Origin: Pirellulales bacterium
Lineage (GTDB): Bacteria; Planctomycetota; Planctomycetia; Pirellulales; Thermoguttaceae
Direction: 5' to 3'
DNA length: 45,238 nucleotides
NCBI GenBank assembly: GCA_016935315.1
Contig: JAFGRD010000160.1
Span: 1 to 45,238 of the forward strand
Shown: positions 3,458-45,238 of the stretch, in pieces
How the letters are laid out: every line of letters starts with the position of its first letter
Position numbering within the stretch: the first letter of the stretch is position 1
Notes under the pieces: generated by a model
Databases searched by the model: none
The model's input: only the letters and a program-made list of their open reading frames with translations
Told to the model about the DNA's origin: nothing
Program-made: the position numbers and the translations under genes

Positions 3458-4684
3458 ATGCCTCTGACCCCTGCCACCCAAACCGGCGACCTGGCCCACG
3501 ACGAGCCGCAGCCCTATCTGTGGACGATGAACGTCGGCCCGCAGCACCCGGCCACGCACACCACCTTGCGGCTGGTGCTGAAGCTGGACGGCGAGCGGGT
3601 GGTCGACGCGATGCCCGACATCGGCTACCTGCACTCGGGCTTCGAGAAGATCGGCGAGCACCTCGACTACAACCAGTACGTGGTGGTGACGGACCGGATG
3701 AACTACGTGTCGCCGGCGGCCAACAACGTGGCCTGGCACCATGCGGTGGAGAAGCTGCTGGGGATCGAGGTCCCGCCGCGGTGCCAGTACATCCGCGTGA
3801 TCATCAGCGAGCTGGCCCGCATCGGCGATCACCTGACGTGCAACGCGGCGGTCGGGCTCGACACGGGGGCCTTCACCTTCTTTATGTACGCCTTCAATCC
3901 CCGCGAAGCGACGCTGGACATCCTGGAGGCGATGTGCGGGGCCCGGTTCACCAACAGCTACACCCGGGTGGGCGGGCTGACCAACGACATCTCGCCCAAG
4001 GCGATCGCGATGATCCGGGAGTTCCTGGCGGGGATGCCGAAGAAGCTGGACGACGCCGAGGCCCTGCTGAACCGCAACCGCATCTTCGTCGACCGCACCA
4101 AGGGCGTCGGCGTGCTGAGCAAGCAGGAAGCGATCAACCGCTGCGTGACCGGTCCGATCGGCCGGGCCAGCGGCGTACCGCGGGACCTGCGGCGGGATGA
4201 ACCCTATCTGGCCTACGGCGACTTCGATTTCGACGTCTGTTGCGCCGAGGCCGGCGACTGCTTCGCCCGATACCTGGTCCGCATGGCCGAGGTCCGCCAG
4301 AGCCTGCGGATCATCGAGCAGGCGGTCGAGAACTTGCCGCCGGGGCCGGTGAACGTGGGGATCGACGCGCGGACGCGGCTGCCGGAGAAGGGCCCGGTGT
4401 ATGCGACGATCGAAGGATTGATTTCGCACTTCGAGCTGGTGATGGCCAATCGCGGGTTCAAGGTGCCCAGCGAAGAGAGCTACGCGGCGGTTGAGGCCCC
4501 CAACGGCGAGCTGGGGTTCTACCTGGTCGGCGACGGCACGAACACGGCGTACCGTGCCCGGTGTCGCCCGCCCTCGTTCATCAATTTCGCCCTCTTTCCC
4601 CATTTGATTCGCGGCCACATGCTCAGCGACGTGGTGGCCGTGTTGGGGAGCCTGAACATCATCGCAGCGGAACTGGATCGATAG
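3458..4684 (+). CDS. nuoD: NADH-quinone oxidoreductase subunit D
   Basis: 49-kDa-type subunit that forms the quinone-binding pocket with NuoB. The 408 residues begin with the conserved MNVGPQHPATHTTLRL loop carrying the quinone-pocket His. The usual Gly after ATH is Thr here. Further landmarks are HSGFEKIGEHLDYNQ, RVIISELARIGDHL, YTRVGGLTND and the C-terminal DVVAVLGSLNIIAAELDR. The hydrogenase-type NiFe cysteines are absent, as expected for complex I. The ATG at 3458 follows nuoC by 32 bp. Confidence 0.96.
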   Translation: MPLTPATQTGDLAHDEPQPYLWTMNVGPQHPATHTTLRLVLKLDGERVVDAMPDIGYLHSGFEKIGEHLDYNQYVVVTDRMNYVSPAANNVAWHHAVEKLLGIEVPPRCQYIRVIISELARIGDHLTCNAAVGLDTGAFTFFMYAFNPREATLDILEAMCGARFTNSYTRVGGLTNDISPKAIAMIREFLAGMPKKLDDAEALLNRNRIFVDRTKGVGVLSKQEAINRCVTGPIGRASGVPRDLRRDEPYLAYGDFDFDVCCAEAGDCFARYLVRMAEVRQSLRIIEQAVENLPPGPVNVGIDARTRLPEKGPVYATIEGLISHFELVMANRGFKVPSEESYAAVEAPNGELGFYLVGDGTNTAYRARCRPPSFINFALFPHLIRGHMLSDVVAVLGSLNIIAAELDR

Positions 4685-10659: not shown

Positions 10660-11207
10660 AACCGGACGATGCGAGAATTCGCTGGATCGAGGAGCCCAAG
10701 CTGGGTGCGACGGGCAAGATGTATCTTCCCCTGTTTTTCCAGGGGATCGTCACGACGATTCGGCACCTGCTGGGCCCCAAGCTGACGGTCTACTCACCCG
10801 AACAGCGCCACGAGATCCCCGATCCGCTGATCTACCGCGGCGTGCACCGCCTGAACCGCGACGAGCAGGGCCGGGTGAAATGTGTCGCCTGCTTCCTGTG
10901 TGCCACGGCCTGTCCCGCCCACTGCATCGACATCATCGGGGCCGAGAGCCCCTGGCCCGACCGCGAGAAGTATCCCGAGTCCTTCACAATCGACGAGCTA
11001 AGGTGTATTTTCTGTGGCATGTGTGAAGAGGCCTGCCCGGTCAACGCGATCGAGCTGACCAGCCTGTACGACCTGTCGGGCAAGAGCCGCGAAGAAATGG
11101 TCTTCGACAAGGAGAAGCTGCTGAGCGTGTACGACCGGACGAAGGACGCCGAGCCGATGGCGAAGGCCGCCGCGCCCCTGCCACCCCAATCGGGAGAGAC
11201 ACCGTGA
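10656..11207 (+). CDS. nuoI: NADH-quinone oxidoreductase subunit I
   Basis: TYKY-type 8Fe ferredoxin subunit carrying clusters N6a and N6b. The 183-residue product has two 4Fe-4S motifs: C76, C79, C82, C86 (CVACFLCATACP) and C117, C120, C123, C127 (CIFCGMCEEACP). The ATG at 10656 sits in an ATGA overlap with nuoH, and its own TGA overlaps the GTG of nuoJ. A short Pro/Ala C-terminal extension follows the core. Confidence 0.96.
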   Translation: MKPDDARIRWIEEPKLGATGKMYLPLFFQGIVTTIRHLLGPKLTVYSPEQRHEIPDPLIYRGVHRLNRDEQGRVKCVACFLCATACPAHCIDIIGAESPWPDREKYPESFTIDELRCIFCGMCEEACPVNAIELTSLYDLSGKSREEMVFDKEKLLSVYDRTKDAEPMAKAAAPLPPQSGETP

Positions 11208-14668: not shown

Positions 14669-16279
14669 ATGGAAGCTCTGCTGTTGGCAGCCGTGTTCTT
14701 GCCCCTGGTCGGGGCGCTGGTGCTGGGAGGAGACCGTGCGGCGGCGCGGCGTTCCGCCCTGGCCACCGTGCTGCTGACGCTGGCCGCCGCGGCCGTGTTG
14801 GTGTTCAGCTATCCGGCCGGCCACGACGCCTTCGCGGCCACGGAATACTCCTGGCTGGGCGGGATCGACTCGCCAATCGACGTCCGGTTCAGCATCGCCC
14901 TGGACGGCCTGAGCGTGTGGCTGTTCGGACTGACCGCGCTGTTGATGGTCACCGCCGTGCTGGTCAGTTGGGAGGCCATCGAGCAGCAGGCCACGATGTT
15001 TTACCGGCTGCTGCTGGTGCTGGAGACCGGGATGCTGGGCGTGTTCGTCGCCCGCGATATCATCCTCTTCTATGTGTTCTTCGAATTCACGCTGATCCCC
15101 CTGTTTTTTCTGATCGGCATCTGGGGAAGCGAGCAGCGCCGTTACGCGGCGATCAAGTTCTTCCTGTTCACGCTGGCCGGCAGCGTGCTGACGCTGCTGG
15201 GTCTGTTGGCGATCGTGTTGTGGGACTACTACAACCCCAGCGGCACCGACACGACCGTGTGGCGGCTGACCTTTTCCATTCCCGAGCTGACCGAGAATCT
15301 GGCCGCTGAGCACATGGACGGGACGCTGCAGCTTGTCATCTTCCTGGCGCTGTTTGCCGGCTTCGCGATCAAGGTGCCGCTGTTCCCGCTGCATACCTGG
15401 CTGCCGCTGGCCCATACCGAGGCGCCCACGGCCGGCAGCGTGATCCTGGCCGGGGTGCTGCTGAAAATCGGCACCTACGGCTTTGCCCGGTTCAGCCTGC
15501 CGATGTTGCCCGAGGCCACCGTGGCCTGCATGCCCTGGCTGCTCTGGCTCTCGGTGGCCGGTGTGATCTACGGCGCGCTGGTGGCGCTGGCGCAGGGCGA
15601 CATCAAACGGCTGATCGCCTACTCCAGCGTCAGCCACCTGGGATTCTGCATGCTGGGCATCTTCGCCCTCAACCCGCTGGGAATCCAGGGCGGCACGCTG
15701 CAGATGATCAACCACGGACTGTCTACCGGGGCTCTGTTCGCCCTGGTCGGCATGCTCTACGAACGCTACCACACCCGACAGATCGCCGATCTGGGCGGGC
15801 TGGCCAGGCAGTTGCCCGTGCTGGCCTTCTTCATGCTGGTCATGACGCTTTCGAGCATCGGACTGCCGGGCCTGAACGGGTTTGCCGGCGAGTTCCTGCT
15901 GCTGTTGGGCCTGTTCCAGCGGGCTTGGGCCGAGGCCACCGCCGCCGACGCCGTGCAATACGTTGCGATCGCCGTGCTGGCCGTCTCCGGTGTCGTGTTG
16001 GGGGCCTGGTACATGCTCTCCCTGGTCCAACGGGTCTTCTTCGGGCCGGTTCGCGAGCCGCGACACAACCCCGCCGAGGCGCCGGTCCGCGATCTGTGCT
16101 TCCGCGAGGTGATGGCCTTGGCCCCGCTGACGGTGTTCGTCGTGTGGATCGGCATTCAGCCGCGGTTCTTCCTCGACCGCATGGAGCCCACGCTGAACAA
16201 GCTGACGGCCAACGTGCGACAACGGGCCGACGAGAAGACTGTCCAGTCCGCCGAAAGGAAACTGACGCGTGTCCGCTGA
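14669..16279 (+). CDS. nuoM: NADH-quinone oxidoreductase subunit M (antiporter-like)
   Basis: Second proton-pumping antiporter-like subunit, 536 residues. It carries FFEFTLIPLFFLIGIWG with the functional Glu, FAIKVPLFPLHTWLPLAHTE with the Lys of the channel, and LAQGDIKRLIAYSSVSHLGF. The ATG at 14669 is preferred over an in-frame GTG three codons earlier. It begins 15 bp after nuoL and ends inside nuoN. Confidence 0.96.
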   Translation: MEALLLAAVFLPLVGALVLGGDRAAARRSALATVLLTLAAAAVLVFSYPAGHDAFAATEYSWLGGIDSPIDVRFSIALDGLSVWLFGLTALLMVTAVLVSWEAIEQQATMFYRLLLVLETGMLGVFVARDIILFYVFFEFTLIPLFFLIGIWGSEQRRYAAIKFFLFTLAGSVLTLLGLLAIVLWDYYNPSGTDTTVWRLTFSIPELTENLAAEHMDGTLQLVIFLALFAGFAIKVPLFPLHTWLPLAHTEAPTAGSVILAGVLLKIGTYGFARFSLPMLPEATVACMPWLLWLSVAGVIYGALVALAQGDIKRLIAYSSVSHLGFCMLGIFALNPLGIQGGTLQMINHGLSTGALFALVGMLYERYHTRQIADLGGLARQLPVLAFFMLVMTLSSIGLPGLNGFAGEFLLLLGLFQRAWAEATAADAVQYVAIAVLAVSGVVLGAWYMLSLVQRVFFGPVREPRHNPAEAPVRDLCFREVMALAPLTVFVVWIGIQPRFFLDRMEPTLNKLTANVRQRADEKTVQSAERKLTRVR

Positions 16280-38718: not shown

Positions 38719-39092
38719 CGTTTCACTCCTCTCCGCCTCTTTCCGCTGCGCCCGGCAGCGGGGCGGATTGTTATTCGTCGGTGGCCTCGTATTCTTACAC
38801 TTCTCCGTCTCGCGACAATCCCCGCGCACGCGACTTCCGCCGATCGGCCGGAAGAACCGACGCTCGGCGCCGGGAAGGTCGCCCAATCTACACTTTATTC
38901 TACGCAACGGGGCAACAAACCGGTTCGTCTGCCGGGCGCCAGGCGGGGGCCACAGCAGCCGTCAGCGGCAGTATACTCCTACCACAAAAGAACTTCCGGC
39001 ACAACGGGGCTTCCCGCTGCTTTGCCGCCGACAGCCCGTTGGAAAAGTCGCCCCAAGCGGCCTTCCCTAAATGGGTGGATGGCGCTACATTG

Positions 39093-39195
39093 TTGGCGAT
39101 TGCACAGTCGATGCGCGAAGACAACCACCGGGAGCCCGATTTTTCCGGCCTCCCGTGGGTCGGCCTTGGTCATTCGCAATGCGAACATCCATCAA
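39093..39195. repeat. diverged full copy of the palindromic element, copy 6
   Basis: TTGGCGATTGCACAGTCGAT starts the A end. The inner arms CACCGGGAGCCCGA and CGGCCTCCCGTGGGTCGGCC are preserved, and the B end is GCGAACATCCATCAA with a 4-bp insertion. It is the most diverged full copy and the only one not touching a gene end. Confidence 0.8.
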
Positions 39196-39301
39196 CGCTT
39201 GATGCAGGAGGCCGGCGCGATCCCGCGCCCGTATGCCGAGCCGCGCCCGTAAGGAAGCGGCCCCCCAACGCCTGCCGCACCACGCTTCCCACTCCCTAAC
39301 G

Positions 39302-39347
39302 GTCGCGGCTCGGTTTCTCCCACAGTCGCGGCTCCGCTGCTCCCACG
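39302..39347. repeat. 23-bp tandem repeat, two units
   Basis: GTCGCGGCTCGGTTTCTCCCACA-type units at 39302-39324 and 39325-39347. The same unit recurs four times at 41767-41858, and the preceding 18 bp (39284-39301) are also identical to 41749-41766. It lies just downstream of the GNAT gene on its strand. Confidence 0.8.
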
Positions 39348-39370
39348 GGGCCGCGGTGGATGCGATTGCC

Positions 39371-39928: not shown

Positions 39929-39937
39929 TTGCCATTA

Positions 39938-40036
39938 TTGACGTTTGCACAGTCAATGCGCGAGGGCGACCAACGGGAGCCCGACCTGTCCGGCCTCCCG
40001 TTGGTCGGCCTGGATCCTTCACAACGCAAACATCAA
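39938..40036. repeat. 99-bp palindromic REPIN-like element, copy 7
   Basis: Full copy and the best example of the symmetry: A end TTGACGTTTGCACAGTCAAT; reversed B end TTGATGTTTGCGTTGTGAAG; between them GGCGACCAACGGGAG pairs perfectly with CTCCCGTTGGTCGGCC around a small centre (CCGACCTGTCCGG). On the minus strand the TGA of the B end (40035-40033) is the stop codon of the small membrane protein. Confidence 0.92.
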
Positions 40037-40380
40037 TCGATGATATCCAAGAGAGACGCCACAGTGACACCGACGGCGCTCAACCATAAAAACGCAACCA
40101 GGCAAACGGCAGTAAACAGCGAGCCGCTGCTGCTGCGTAACGAATTCGGATACAGGTACAGATACCCTGTCATATAGATGGCAGGACCGATGCTCATCAC
40201 CATGCACGCGTAACGGGCCGACAAGTACGACGGGGATGCCAACAGAATGCCACATGCGACCATCGTAATCATCACCATTAGTGCAGCCTTGTATTGCTGG
40301 CGATTCCACTCCTGCTGGCTGAACCTCCGTTGGTGGGCTACCATCATTGCGTCGTCTGAATGCTCTGTGGATTTATTCAT
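40033..40380 (-). CDS. small three-helix membrane protein
   Basis: The 115-residue protein has a polar N-terminus (MNKSTEHSDDAMMVAHQRRF) and three hydrophobic helices (about 33-50, 57-73 and 87-108). No family is recognised. The ATG at 40380 has AAGGG seven bases upstream. The coding sequence ends DIID followed by a TGA that is the first TGA of the palindromic repeat, so the native C-terminus may have been replaced. Confidence 0.6.
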   Translation of the reverse strand: MNKSTEHSDDAMMVAHQRRFSQQEWNRQQYKAALMVMITMVACGILLASPSYLSARYACMVMSIGPAIYMTGYLYLYPNSLRSSSGSLFTAVCLVAFLWLSAVGVTVASLLDIID

Positions 40381-41531: not shown

Positions 41532-41766
41532 GTCCCCATCTTCAGTTGAGTTGGACCAATCAGACCAGTCACGTAGTCACGTAGGTTATGCTTCAGCATA
41601 TCTAGATCCGCGATGAAAGGGAATCCACGGAGTGGAGGCCTGCCGAGGCATGACCCGTCGGTGCTGGTGGTGTCGGGCTGAGTCTATCGCCCAATCGCAC
41701 GCCTGCGCGACCGGCCCGCAGCCCGCCCAAACCCTCCTGGACCTGACGGCTTCCCACTCCCTAACG

Positions 41767-41858
41767 GTCGCGGCTCCGTTTCTCCCAAAGTCGCGGCTTG
41801 GTTACTCCCACGGTCGCGGCTTGGTTACGCCCACGGTCGCGGCTTGGTTACGCCCAGG
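41767..41858. repeat. 23-bp tandem repeat, four units
   Basis: Units GTCGCGGCTTGGTTACGCCCACG and variants start at 41767, 41790, 41813 and 41836. They are contiguous, with no spacers, so this is not a CRISPR. The same repeat occurs twice at 39302-39347. Confidence 0.9.
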
Positions 41859-41907
41859 GGGGCCTCGGGGTCCTTCGCCCGGAGGGTCCGACTATCGCCT
41901 CCCCGGT

Positions 41908-41950
41908 AAACAAAGAAAGCCCTTCGCAACCCGTTGCTGCGAAAGGCTTT
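41908..41950 (-). terminator. intrinsic terminator of the tRNA-Pro gene
   Basis: On the minus strand AAAGCCTTTCGCA and TGCGAAGGGCTTT pair over 13 bp with one G-T wobble, then CTTTGTTTAC. It starts 5 bp after the tRNA 3' end. Confidence 0.75.
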
Positions 41951-41955
41951 ATGAG

Positions 41956-42000
41956 TCGGGGCGACTGGATTCGAACCAGCGACCTTCTGACCCCCAGTCA
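41956..42000 (-). tRNA. 3' fragment of tRNA-Pro(GGG), integration site
   Basis: Minus strand, from anticodon loop to acceptor end: TGACTGGGGGTCAGAAGG, T-arm GCTGG-TTCGAAT-CCAGT, acceptor CGCCCCG and discriminator A. With an expected TCTGA 5' arm the loop CTGGGGG has anticodon GGG. Only three anticodon-stem bases remain on the 5' side, and the sequence then diverges into the promoter of the integrase gene. The D arm and 5' acceptor strand are missing, so it is not a functional tRNA. It is the kind of 3' tRNA remnant left at one end of an integrated element. Confidence 0.75.
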
Positions 42001-42003
42001 CTA

Positions 42004-42031
42004 TTGACGTTCAAAGCCGTCGTGCTATAAT
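42004..42031 (+). promoter_or_regulatory. strong promoter of the integrase gene
   Basis: TTGACG (42004-42009), 16-bp spacer, TATAAT (42026-42031). It begins 4 bp after the tRNA fragment, so the promoter is part of the incoming element, and transcription is directed into the integrase gene. Confidence 0.75.
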
Positions 42032-42132
42032 CATGCTTGTACGATGCTTGAACTCGTTATCTGACTTAATTTTACGGTCGAGACCGCCGAAGTAAAGGGT
42101 GGTTCAAGTATCGGTCAAACACGTCACGCATA

Positions 42133-42171
42133 TGGGACGCAAATGGGACAGCCTGAACCGAAAGGTGGGAC
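42133..42171 (+). promoter_or_regulatory. three TGGGAC direct repeats before the integrase
   Basis: TGGGAC occurs at 42133, 42144 and 42166 (spacings of 11 and 22 bp, i.e. one and two helical turns). The last is 7 bp before the integrase start at 42178. The helical phasing suggests a protein-binding site, for example for autoregulation or for arm-type integrase binding. Confidence 0.35.
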
Positions 42172-42177
42172 AGCTAA

Positions 42178-43392
42178 ATGAACGACGAACAGCCAATCAA
42201 AGGGGTCCGATTCCGCAACGGGGCATGGCGAATCAGGCACGCCGGGCGCGAACTGGGGTCTTTCGAGACAGTAGGGGAAGCCAACGACGCCAAGCGTGGC
42301 CTACAACGCCGTCTGAGGGACATTAAGCGGGGGTTCCCGGTGCCGGATAACGTAGTCGATGTAGTTCGCTGGATTGTCTCAGGCGAACGTGAGGGGTACG
42401 CCGCGAACGGTGGTCCCAAGCCGACCACGATTGAGGCGTTGGTGAAAGAGTACCTTGCCTTCCGCAAGACCCGCGTCGAGAACGGGGAAATGAAGATTAG
42501 CTCCCTGAAAGACGACACTTGGCACCTGAACAAGTGGGTCGAGTGGTGCGAGTCACAGAAGTACAACACGGTCGATGCTGCCGTGAGTGAAGACGCCCTG
42601 GACCAGTACAAGGCCAAGGTGGTTGCCCATTTCGGCAGCAAGGATAGCGTGAGACTGACAGTCGGGGCCGTCAAGGCGTGCATTGAATGGGGATGGGGCC
42701 GTCGCAGAATCTCTGACTCATCTTTGCCCCGCAACTTGAAGTCGTTTCGTGAAGTGAAGGGCAAGAAGACACCCAAGGCGAATCCCTTCACAAAGGATGA
42801 GTTGCACGCCCTCGTTAAGGCCGCTACGCCGGAAATGAAGCTGTACATACTTCTCGCGTGCAATGCCGGATACACGCAGGTTGACATTGCCACGCTTGAC
42901 CACAGCATGGTCGATTGGGATACCGGCATGATTGAACGGAATCGCCACAAGTTGGAATACAAGGCCGACATTCCCCAGCCGTCGAAGTTGTGGCCCAGCA
43001 CGCTTGCCCTGCTGAGCAAACACGCTACCAAACCCAACAGGCAGGGCGGTGGCCTTGTGTTGCTGTCCCGGCAGAAAACCCCGCTGAAAGACCCCGAACG
43101 GCAGGTTGACTTGATTCAGCGTGCCTTCCATCGACTGAAACAAAAGGTCAAGATTAAGGGCAAGAAATCATTCCGAAACATGCGTCAAGTCGGGGCGTCG
43201 GCAATCAAAAACCAGTATGTACCGGAGACTCGCGGAACGAAGACGAATCAGGAACTATTCGATATGTTCCTGGCACACAAACCGCCCGCGATGAATCAGC
43301 CCTACGATGAGGGAGACTTCACCGAACTGTTTCAGGCAACCGAGTGGCTAGGCGAACACCTGAACCTGCGTGACGGCGATAGCCTGCCGTAG
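42178..43392 (+). CDS. tyrosine-recombinase-like integrase (planctomycete type)
   Basis: The 404-residue protein has an arm-type N-terminal region (1-60), a SAM-like core-binding domain (about 82-180) and a catalytic-like domain (about 200-390). The C-terminal pattern is HKPPAMNQPY with H367 and the candidate nucleophile Y376, and RNMRQ with R336. At the first catalytic Arg position (usual G-x-R-x-x-E) the sequence is AGYTQVDIATL, with Thr233 instead of Arg. Similar substitutions are frequent in planctomycete integrase-like proteins. The gene lies directly next to the tRNA fragment, which makes it the likely integrase of this element. Its 3' end overlaps the converging HTH gene by 61 bp. Confidence 0.8.
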   Translation: MNDEQPIKGVRFRNGAWRIRHAGRELGSFETVGEANDAKRGLQRRLRDIKRGFPVPDNVVDVVRWIVSGEREGYAANGGPKPTTIEALVKEYLAFRKTRVENGEMKISSLKDDTWHLNKWVEWCESQKYNTVDAAVSEDALDQYKAKVVAHFGSKDSVRLTVGAVKACIEWGWGRRRISDSSLPRNLKSFREVKGKKTPKANPFTKDELHALVKAATPEMKLYILLACNAGYTQVDIATLDHSMVDWDTGMIERNRHKLEYKADIPQPSKLWPSTLALLSKHATKPNRQGGGLVLLSRQKTPLKDPERQVDLIQRAFHRLKQKVKIKGKKSFRNMRQVGASAIKNQYVPETRGTKTNQELFDMFLAHKPPAMNQPYDEGDFTELFQATEWLGEHLNLRDGDSLP

Positions 43393-43670
43393 TCAGGTTT
43401 CCGTAGCGGTCGCCACAGATTCGCCCTGAGTTTCTCCACGGTCTCAGGGTAAATCTTAATGGGCTCCTTCTCTCCAAGTTGGTCGAAGTCAATCTGCTTT
43501 AACCGGCACCATGTACGGACCGTTTCAGGGGTCTTCGGAAAACCTTCAGCGGTCGCAAGTTCCGCCACTTCGCGGGGGCTGAGTGGTCGTGGCGAATCAG
43601 TCTTGCCGTCTTCGAGTGCCGATAATCGATTATTGATTAGGCGTAGTTCCTCAAGTATTCGTTCATCCAT
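43332..43670 (-). CDS. excisionase-like HTH protein
   Basis: The 112-residue protein has an N-terminal coiled segment (MDERILEELRLINNRLSALE), then a winged-helix/MerR-like HTH (about 30-80) with LSPREVAELATAEGFPKTPETVRTWCRLK and the wing IKIYPETVEKLRANLW. This is the layout of small excisionase or recombination directionality factors. Its ATG at 43670 has AAAGG 8 nt upstream. It converges on, and overlaps, the integrase, and is driven by a strong promoter. Confidence 0.7.
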   Translation of the reverse strand: MDERILEELRLINNRLSALEDGKTDSPRPLSPREVAELATAEGFPKTPETVRTWCRLKQIDFDQLGEKEPIKIYPETVEKLRANLWRPLRKPDYGRLSPSRRFRCSPSHSVA

Positions 43671-43724
43671 AGGCTTCACCTTTCTGTCTCATAAGTGCTT
43701 ACTCCACAACGGGTTACGGGGTTT

Positions 43725-43752
43725 ATTCTATCACGGATTCTCGAATTGTCAA
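43725..43752 (-). promoter_or_regulatory. promoter of the excisionase-like gene
   Basis: On the minus strand TTGACA (43752-43747) and TAGAAT (43730-43725) are 16 bp apart; the start codon is about 55 bp further on. The inverted pair CTCGAATT / AATTCGAG lies around the -35 box (43739-43771) and could be an operator. Confidence 0.65.
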
Positions 43753-43822
43753 CCCAGAAAATTCGAGAGGGACCGGCACGATGGCCCGACGACCTACGCC
43801 GATGGAGACTACGCCGCAAGAC

Positions 43823-43851
43823 TTGTTTCCTTCTCCCCGTCGTGGTAGCGT
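43823..43851 (+). promoter_or_regulatory. possible promoter of the PEP-CTERM gene
   Basis: TTGTTT (43823-43828), 17-bp spacer, TAGCGT (43846-43851); 50 bp before the ATG. Confidence 0.3.
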
Positions 43852-43900
43852 GGAAGAACCTTGATAAACTACCCGATTCCAATCCAGGAGGACGAAGAAG

Positions 43901-44533
43901 ATGACTCGACCGACTCTGATTAGCGTCTTTGTGTTTGGGATGATGGGTGTGAATGCCTCAGCAGCAATCTTTGTCGATAACTTCGACCTGTATGGCGATT
44001 ACACGCAGTATCTGGACTCGACCGATAATGCGAGGGTTTACACAGAAGGCTACTGGCCCGCTGGGCCCACGCACTATTGGGCACCGATTTCAAGGTCCGA
44101 CTGGGGAGAGGTCGTATACAAGTACGATTTGCCATTTAGCATCGAGTCCGCGAGTATCGATGCAAGCATTCTAGCCCTTACTTGGCATGACAGTACGGCC
44201 GAGGGTTACCTCGACGTATCGCCCAACGGTGTGGACTGGACACAAGTGCTCACTGCGGGCCTCAATTCGTTCATTGACCCTATCGACGTGACAAGTTATC
44301 TGGCAGGCTCCGACACAGCGTATATCCGGGCCAGATTGCGGTCTAGAAACAGTCCCATTGGTGCCCAGTTCCTCAGGACGACGCCCAACCCGAACAACCC
44401 ACAGACGCAGGCCCCGGAAGTATATGAATTCCGCGCCGAGGGGGCCAATGTCGTTCCCGAACCCTCCACGTTCGTCATCTTTGCCACGCTGGCAACTTTG
44501 GGCATCGCATGGGGGTGGTGGCGACGGAGGTAG
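43901..44533 (+). CDS. PEP-CTERM sorting domain protein
   Basis: The 210-residue secreted protein has a signal peptide (about 1-22, ending NASA-A) and a C-terminal PEP-CTERM signal: VPEPSTF at about 186, a hydrophobic helix (VIFATLATLGIAWGW) and a WRRR end. Such signals direct processing by exosortase-type enzymes and are linked to surface polymers. The middle part is a beta-rich domain with DSTAEGYLDVSPNGVDWTQV, resembling adhesion or carbohydrate-binding folds. AGGAGG 9 nt upstream of the ATG at 43901 supports the start. It lies within the integrated element; no exosortase is visible in the window. Confidence 0.82.
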   Translation: MTRPTLISVFVFGMMGVNASAAIFVDNFDLYGDYTQYLDSTDNARVYTEGYWPAGPTHYWAPISRSDWGEVVYKYDLPFSIESASIDASILALTWHDSTAEGYLDVSPNGVDWTQVLTAGLNSFIDPIDVTSYLAGSDTAYIRARLRSRNSPIGAQFLRTTPNPNNPQTQAPEVYEFRAEGANVVPEPSTFVIFATLATLGIAWGWWRRR

Positions 44534-44571
44534 GGCTCTTGCATGACTTTTTGCCCAAAGGAGAATCATTG

Positions 44572-44694
44572 ATGAAACGCAATCGTAGAATTCTTTGCGT
44601 TCTATTCATGGGAGCCGTGATGGCAGTAGTTGCGGGGTGCGGTTCACGTTCCGCTACGTCAGGCAGTAAAGGCGAGCAATCGCAACAGTCTTGA
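44572..44694 (+). CDS. 40-residue lipoprotein
   Basis: The tiny protein has a basic start (MKRNRRILC), a hydrophobic core (VLFMGAVMAVV) and a lipobox ending VAGC at Cys23, leaving only 18 residues of mature Ser/Gly/Gln-rich peptide. AAGGAG 8 nt upstream of the ATG at 44572 is a good ribosome site. It follows the PEP-CTERM gene by 38 bp on the same strand and probably shares its transcript. Function unknown; similar to entericidin-like small lipoproteins in size. Confidence 0.65.
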   Translation: MKRNRRILCVLFMGAVMAVVAGCGSRSATSGSKGEQSQQS

Positions 44695-45238
44695 ATGATT
44701 TTTCCCACTACAGACCAACACGCTCTGTACCAGTTACTACGCCAGAGACTCTCAAACCCACTCCCTTCCTTGGCTCTTTACCCAAGAGAAAAGGTGCCGG
44801 TATGCACGGAGGGCAGTATGTGCGACCAAGACTTGCCCGTCCCGCTCGATTCGTCGAACGGCCAGTTTAAGCCAATTGCCTCGGGAGTTCTCCTTGCTGC
44901 AAACGGCGTTGGTTCAAATTCGATGATGAACACGGCACGATGCCAGCCGCATTCGTACTAAGTGAATCTGTCGGGGCACGGCTCGGGCTTTGATGGAGCA
45001 GTTTTGCGCGGCTGTGGTCGCCCCGTGCCCGTCTCCTGCTGAATTAGAAGCGCGTTTCGCTGAGAGTCGGAATCGTGAAGCGGGAAGTGATGAAATCGAC
45101 CGCGACGACATGGCATAAAACGCCCAATTATTCCGTTTTGCGGCCATTTTGGAGCCTACTTTCCGCACATCTCGTTCGAGATATCTCACGAATTTCGAGG
45201 TCTGATTGTCTTGTAGAGGCGGACCGCGGCGGCTACAA
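44695..45238. other. right end of the window without a recognised gene
   Basis: An 88-codon frame starts with an ATG at 44695 directly after the lipoprotein stop (TGAATG), but its product has no family likeness or compositional support. A second frame contains RWFKFDDEHGTMPAAFVLSE over about 40 codons without a start. The stretch may be a decayed gene of the element. After 45100 the DNA is AT-richer and appears intergenic. Confidence 0.3.

Follow-up and report, generated by a model that had tools for sequence, protein, structure and literature searches.

The locus studied here raises the question of why the 3' part of a tRNA-Pro(GGG) gene lies broken off directly in front of an integrase gene, and of where the rest of that tRNA gene has gone. 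The stretch of DNA analyzed, hereafter the window, is 45,238 nucleotides long and constitutes the whole of contig C42 of a 7.1-Mb genome assembled into 172 contigs. ARAGORN detected no intact tRNA gene in the window. What the window holds is a 46-nt piece at 41955-42000 on the minus strand (positions 31-76 of the gene), which is identical to positions 614-659 of another contig, C44, and which includes the entire anticodon loop together with three bases from the 5' side of its stem. The similarity to intact tRNA-Pro(GGG) ends at 42000. A preliminary description of this DNA had proposed that the 3' part of a tRNA-Pro(GGG), with its own terminator, was broken within the anticodon stem and joined to a promoter and an integrase gene, and our analysis bears out each of these points: the fragment stops in the 5' strand of the stem at 42000, a hairpin follows its 3' end (41916-41950, minus strand; 15 pairs and a T-rich tail), and at its broken end lie a promoter-like site (42004-42031, plus strand) and a complete ORF encoding the integrase (42178-43392, plus strand; 404 amino acids from an ATG start).

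The terminator-like hairpin at 41916-41950 folds with -23.3 kcal/mol and its counterpart on C44 with -22.8 kcal/mol. By itself the hairpin in the window is not significant, since one such structure was found near the tRNA piece against 0.5 expected from shuffled sequences. When the 60 nt following each tRNA copy were aligned directly, 31 of 65 columns were identical, which is within the random range (the best of 100 random pairs reached 53%), and the homology of the two terminators thus rests on a BLAST match running through the terminator (window 41909-42000 against the tRNA region of C44, 85%), on the folding of both copies, and on three relatives in which tRNA-Pro(GGG) is also followed by a similar terminator. 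The promoter-like site, assigned by its match to the consensus, consists of TTGACG (42004-42009), 16 nt, and TATAAT (42026-42031) and agrees at 11 of 12 consensus positions; two sites of this kind occur in the 321-base region, where 0.2 would be expected.

One point of the preliminary description did not hold, namely that base composition changes at the tRNA fragment. In 1-kb windows, G+C content is 0.65-0.72 between 30 and 38.5 kb and 0.54-0.63 from about 38.5 kb onwards, so that the drop begins well to the left of the fragment. This left-hand region also contains a 23-bp tandem repeat (GGTCGCGGCTTGGTTACGCCCAC) in four copies at 41764-41878, with a related copy at 39291-39350. In addition, a palindromic repeat some 110 bp long, dispersed and resembling a miniature transposon, was recognized by eye at window 39933-40045 and at C44 722-840, with a poorer copy at window 39090-39200.

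It had also been predicted that the 5' half of the tRNA gene was moved to the right and the gene restored there, next to a repeat of 41956-42000. Both were found on C44: an intact tRNA-Pro(GGG) lies at 614-689, on the expected side and strand (minus), 613 bp into the contig and with pyrF to its right, and the exact repeat corresponds to window 41955-42000. When the outer flanks are joined (the window up to 42000 and C44 from 660), they yield an intact tRNA-Pro(GGG), as expected from conservative recombination between an attB site within the tRNA gene and an attP site with a copied 3' part. DNA searches of the genome found this one intact GGG gene and otherwise one tRNA-Pro(CGG) and one tRNA-Pro(TGG). 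The gene pyrF is present in 53 of 59 other genomes, and among the best 29 of these 53 loci, some of which are cut by contig ends, tRNA-Pro(GGG) adjoins pyrF in nine; C44 therefore looks like the old place of this tRNA gene. A comparison of 14 proteins from the left of the window with eight stretches from relatives, all of them of other genera, showed no synteny with tRNA-Pro(GGG) and no empty site. One long ORF was matched in one of these stretches, on the pyrF side, and was hence of no use for this purpose.

To what extent C44 can be regarded as the continuation of the window depends on the contig ends. The last 84 bases of the window (45155-45238) also terminate five other contigs, and the first 84 bases of C44 also occur at the ends of six others. 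The inverted termini of these two end types resemble each other, agreeing at 11 of their first 14 bases, as expected if both belong to one insertion sequence (IS); the IS is multicopy, breaks the assembly at 13 contig ends, and interrupts the element in the window. Directly outside the two ends lies the same hexamer, TTGGAG, at 45149-45154 in the window (left copy of the target duplication) and at 85-90 in C44 (right copy). Such exact 6-bp repeats pair C42 with C44, C12 with C69, C30 with C29, C106 with C58, and C91 with C107, and three IS ends (C45, C108, and C109) have no duplication partner. At the true offset, 5 of the 42 left-right contig combinations match, whereas 99 other offsets gave 0.02 matches on average and never more than one. 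Based on these duplications, which allow five contig pairs to be joined, the window very probably runs via a single IS copy into C44. The interior of the IS, its transposase, and the actual C42-C44 joint are absent from the assembly, and a search of 145 other genomes found no copies of the IS.

Read across this junction, the element without the IS comprises window 42001-45154 (3,154 nt), C44 91-613 (523 nt), and the 46-nt tRNA block, which adds up to about 3.7 kb; the full element additionally contains one IS. Near its left end, three TGGGAC sites (42133-42171, plus strand) start at 42133, 42144, and 42166, at distances of 11 and 22 bp. Near its right end, a pair of the form YGGGAC-N5-YGGGAC occurs at C44 521/532, with the same spacing (11 bp start to start) and the same orientation within the pair as 42133/42144. 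The 7.1-Mb genome contains nine such pairs, of which two are these near the element ends, and one instance of the reversed pattern; as the pattern was chosen after both ends had been seen, this count is descriptive. We consider these pairs to be candidate arm-type sites, which would be bound by the integrase.

Besides the integrase, the element encodes few proteins. The first is a 115 amino acid protein (43332-43679, minus strand) convergent with the integrase gene, with the look of a helix-turn-helix protein and a weak match to a PHROG of unknown function; it may assist recombination and is a candidate excision factor. A second, cargo protein of 210 amino acids (43901-44533, plus strand) is predicted to be exported and to carry a PEP-CTERM-like tail; its profile scores fall short of the Pfam cut-off and lie close to that of NCBIfam. 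Finally, an inner ATG of a 61 amino acid ORF (44509-44694) could start a lipoprotein of 40 amino acids (44572-44694, plus strand). Relatives of the 210 amino acid protein were found in 23 of 295 other genomes and of the 115 amino acid protein in one of 295, and these searches revealed no connection to the integrase. No transfer or replication gene was recognized among the integrase, the 115 amino acid protein, and the 210 amino acid protein.

Taken together, the two tRNA copies, the gene rebuilt from the outer flanks, the duplication linking the contigs, and the paired sites near both ends lead us to conclude with high confidence that a small integrative element entered the anticodon stem-loop of tRNA-Pro(GGG) by site-specific recombination, and that the window contains its integrase-side end. 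The circular element would have carried its own tRNA 3' part and terminator. Recombination would then have stranded the chromosomal 3' part and terminator beside the integrase (41916-42000), which makes 41955-42000 the putative integrase-side attachment site, and would have supplied the chromosomal 5' part with the 3' part brought by the element, leaving a complete gene at the far end (C44 614-689). The IS would have inserted into the element later, and now breaks the assembly.

The enzyme encoded at 42178-43392 most likely performed this integration, and its assignment as an integrase required sensitive comparisons. The Pfam integrase model scored 16.4 against a cut-off of 27.1, no integrase model of NCBIfam matched at an E value of 0.1, and the seven PF00589 places of the genome do not include this protein; its best family was PHROG 1 (integrase; E = 5.5e-9). 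A phmmer search of PDB sequences with the protein alone returned nothing. In contrast, a family profile built from it and 16 viral-contig relatives matched XerA (7e-13), lambda Int, IntI4, and XerD. A structure model (mean pLDDT 69.5, with the first 80 and last 60 residues poorly modeled) had its best Foldseek matches in lambda Int (1z1b) and XerA, at E values of about 1e-7 and TM scores of about 0.35-0.5. Both Foldseek and the profile recover the core-binding and catalytic domains of the tyrosine recombinase fold. Lambda integrase, the best match in fold, aligns with the family profile over most of its length, at an identity of about 14%.

The active site departs from this general pattern. 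In the profile alignments, the box I arginine of XerA and lambda Int corresponds to a glycine of the family, which is Thr233 in the window integrase. This column contained threonine in 28, glycine in 24, tyrosine in two, glutamine in one, and arginine in none of 55 aligned proteins (the window integrase included), which were gathered by similarity to the window integrase and are therefore not an unbiased sample. The usual lysine, second arginine, second histidine, and tyrosine correspond by alignment to K258, R336, H367, and Y376, the last of which sits in the poorly modeled tail, and the first histidine of the HxxR motif is replaced by Arg333. With two of the six usual active-site residues missing (Thr233 and Arg333), activity of the enzyme is not assured. 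R256, K258, and W272 are kept in all 55 proteins, which places an invariant arginine two residues before the lysine. Four other recombinases of the genome keep the first arginine, and two of these also have an arginine two residues before the presumed catalytic lysine; R256 is thus a candidate, and not a proven, substitute for the missing first arginine. The substitute arginine of the CTnDOT integrase likewise stands two residues before the lysine.

To place the integrase in context, we searched for related proteins and inspected the tRNA genes beside them. Matches at an E value of 1e-15 or better were found in 30 of 395 other genomes from the order. Two of four scans of viral contigs gave 18 loci and the other two none, and the genome_contigs scans gave no relatives. 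A motif scan of L141-L143 gave no clear reading of their active sites. A tRNA gene or piece adjoins the integrase in 25 of the 32 closer relatives in the tree, and two arrangements predominate. In type A (13 of 32), an intact tRNA turns its 3' end toward the integrase; two of these elements (L117 and L119) are flanked by exact tRNA 3'-part repeats of 43 and 44 nt. In type B (11 of 32), a 3'-part fragment turns its broken end toward the integrase, as in the window, and the best match was tRNA-Pro for ten fragments and tRNA-Val for one. Of the others, one adjoins a 5' half and seven have nothing in the stretch examined, in a search with a library of 43 different tRNAs that could miss fragments of others.

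In the tree, the window integrase sits on a long branch and groups (support 97/99) with nine integrases, its nearest relatives, all of which are of type A and face an intact tRNA. The window integrase itself faces the displaced piece, so that its layout is the reverse of that of its group. Such a reversal may reflect a flipped attP or an internal inversion. When eight type B places were extended to 24-58 kb, three had an intact tRNA-Pro on the predicted side and in the predicted orientation (among these, one fragment was 24 nt long and another 86% identical), and five had none. One type B relative, L125 (genome G225), shares the arrangement of the window at the same tRNA, with an intact tRNA-Pro(GGG) at 426-501 and a related integrase facing a 3' fragment at the other end. 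It differs from the element described here in its size of about 10 kb, in the presence of a second fragment beyond the first (10885-10931 and 15402-15442), and in that its integrase belongs to another branch of the tree. These two successive 3' fragments perhaps represent two elements stacked in one tRNA.

Other arrangements were also observed. At L124, the 5' half of tRNA-Arg(CCT), positions 1-39, is duplicated beside a related integrase, and the intact gene lies at a distance of 6.7 kb (coordinates 4087-4160 and 10818-10856); elements that carry a 5' part, as here, are the less common kind. In a sister clade with the motif GFGN (L019, L020, L023-L025, and others), an intact tRNA in many cases lies in divergent orientation to the integrase and turns its 5' end toward it, the opposite side from type A. 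Six viral loci of this clade yielded one partial 3'-half copy (L159) and one 20-nt match (L158), and no repeat that would account for the position of the integrase.

Integration into a tRNA gene is well known and ordinary; what is unusual here is the missing catalytic arginine and the side on which the integrase lies. Insertion by tyrosine recombinases at the anticodon stem-loop, after which the tRNA is restored, is standard (Williams 2002 and Campbell 2003, as cited in PMC8371274), and restored bacterial tRNAs are reported to be expressed, with few exceptions, from their original promoter. Our element agrees in the place of crossover, the copied 3' part, and a restored tRNA read from its own promoter side, and differs in that its integrase faces the displaced piece and its element-borne copy includes the terminator. 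PMC8138268 reports that the CTnDOT integrase lacks the first catalytic arginine, another downstream arginine replacing it, and that this residue is shifted in the IntDes subgroup. The likeness to these descriptions is that the first arginine is absent or shifted; the difference is that here all 55 aligned relatives lack it. The reversed integrase side has a parallel in related tRNA-Pro elements, and the missing arginine in the CTnDOT integrase.

Considering these departures, the element may be dead: an integrase without the first arginine would be non-functional, and the element, originally moved by another enzyme, would have been fixed long ago. Two usual catalytic residues are indeed changed, an IS interrupts the element, and no transfer gene was recognized among the three proteins searched. 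We nevertheless consider this unlikely, as the integrase reading frame is intact and the arginine is absent throughout the aligned family, two members of which bound the elements with exact 43- and 44-nt tRNA repeats. This proposal concerns present activity and can hold together with integration into tRNA-Pro(GGG) as set out above. Far less probable is that the fragment and integrase in the window remain from an earlier or more extensive island, the tRNA on C44 stemming from a different event and the two contigs not being neighbors. The ends of a multicopy IS alone are no proof of neighborhood, the integrase has a long branch, G+C content is low already to the left of the fragment, and L125 provides a precedent for one tRNA with two successive fragments. 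Against this stand the exact 6-bp duplication shared by C42 and C44, with four other contig pairs behaving likewise, the occurrence of paired sites near either end of the element, and the fact that searches of the genome found just one tRNA-Pro(GGG). Finally, a chance match or stray piece unrelated to the integrase can practically be dismissed, given the 46-nt identity to the genome's own tRNA-Pro(GGG) and the like pieces beside 11 related integrases.

Beyond this locus, it is conceivable, at slightly less than even confidence, that the window represents one case of a widespread tRNA-targeting integrase family, present in one order and in viral contigs, that as a whole gave up the first arginine (glycine or threonine in 52 of 55), uses the invariant arginine two residues before the lysine in the manner of the CTnDOT integrase, and has flipped the direction of integrase and tRNA within the family. 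In the literature searched (titles and abstract openings, with few subscription journals), we found nothing on integrases of these bacteria without this arginine. Since standard models miss the window integrase or score it below their cut-off, the annotation of mobile elements in these bacteria is probably incomplete. Enzymes without the first arginine, if active, would constitute a natural, clade-wide test of rearranging the nearly invariant active site of tyrosine recombinases, and this integrase family deserves a separate look.

The genome may also contain a second element in a tRNA-Pro gene. On contig C11 (82397-83207; L007 and L140), a 668 amino acid recombinase frame that has the first arginine is convergent with tRNA-Pro(CGG) and lies about 300 bp from the 3' end of this tRNA.
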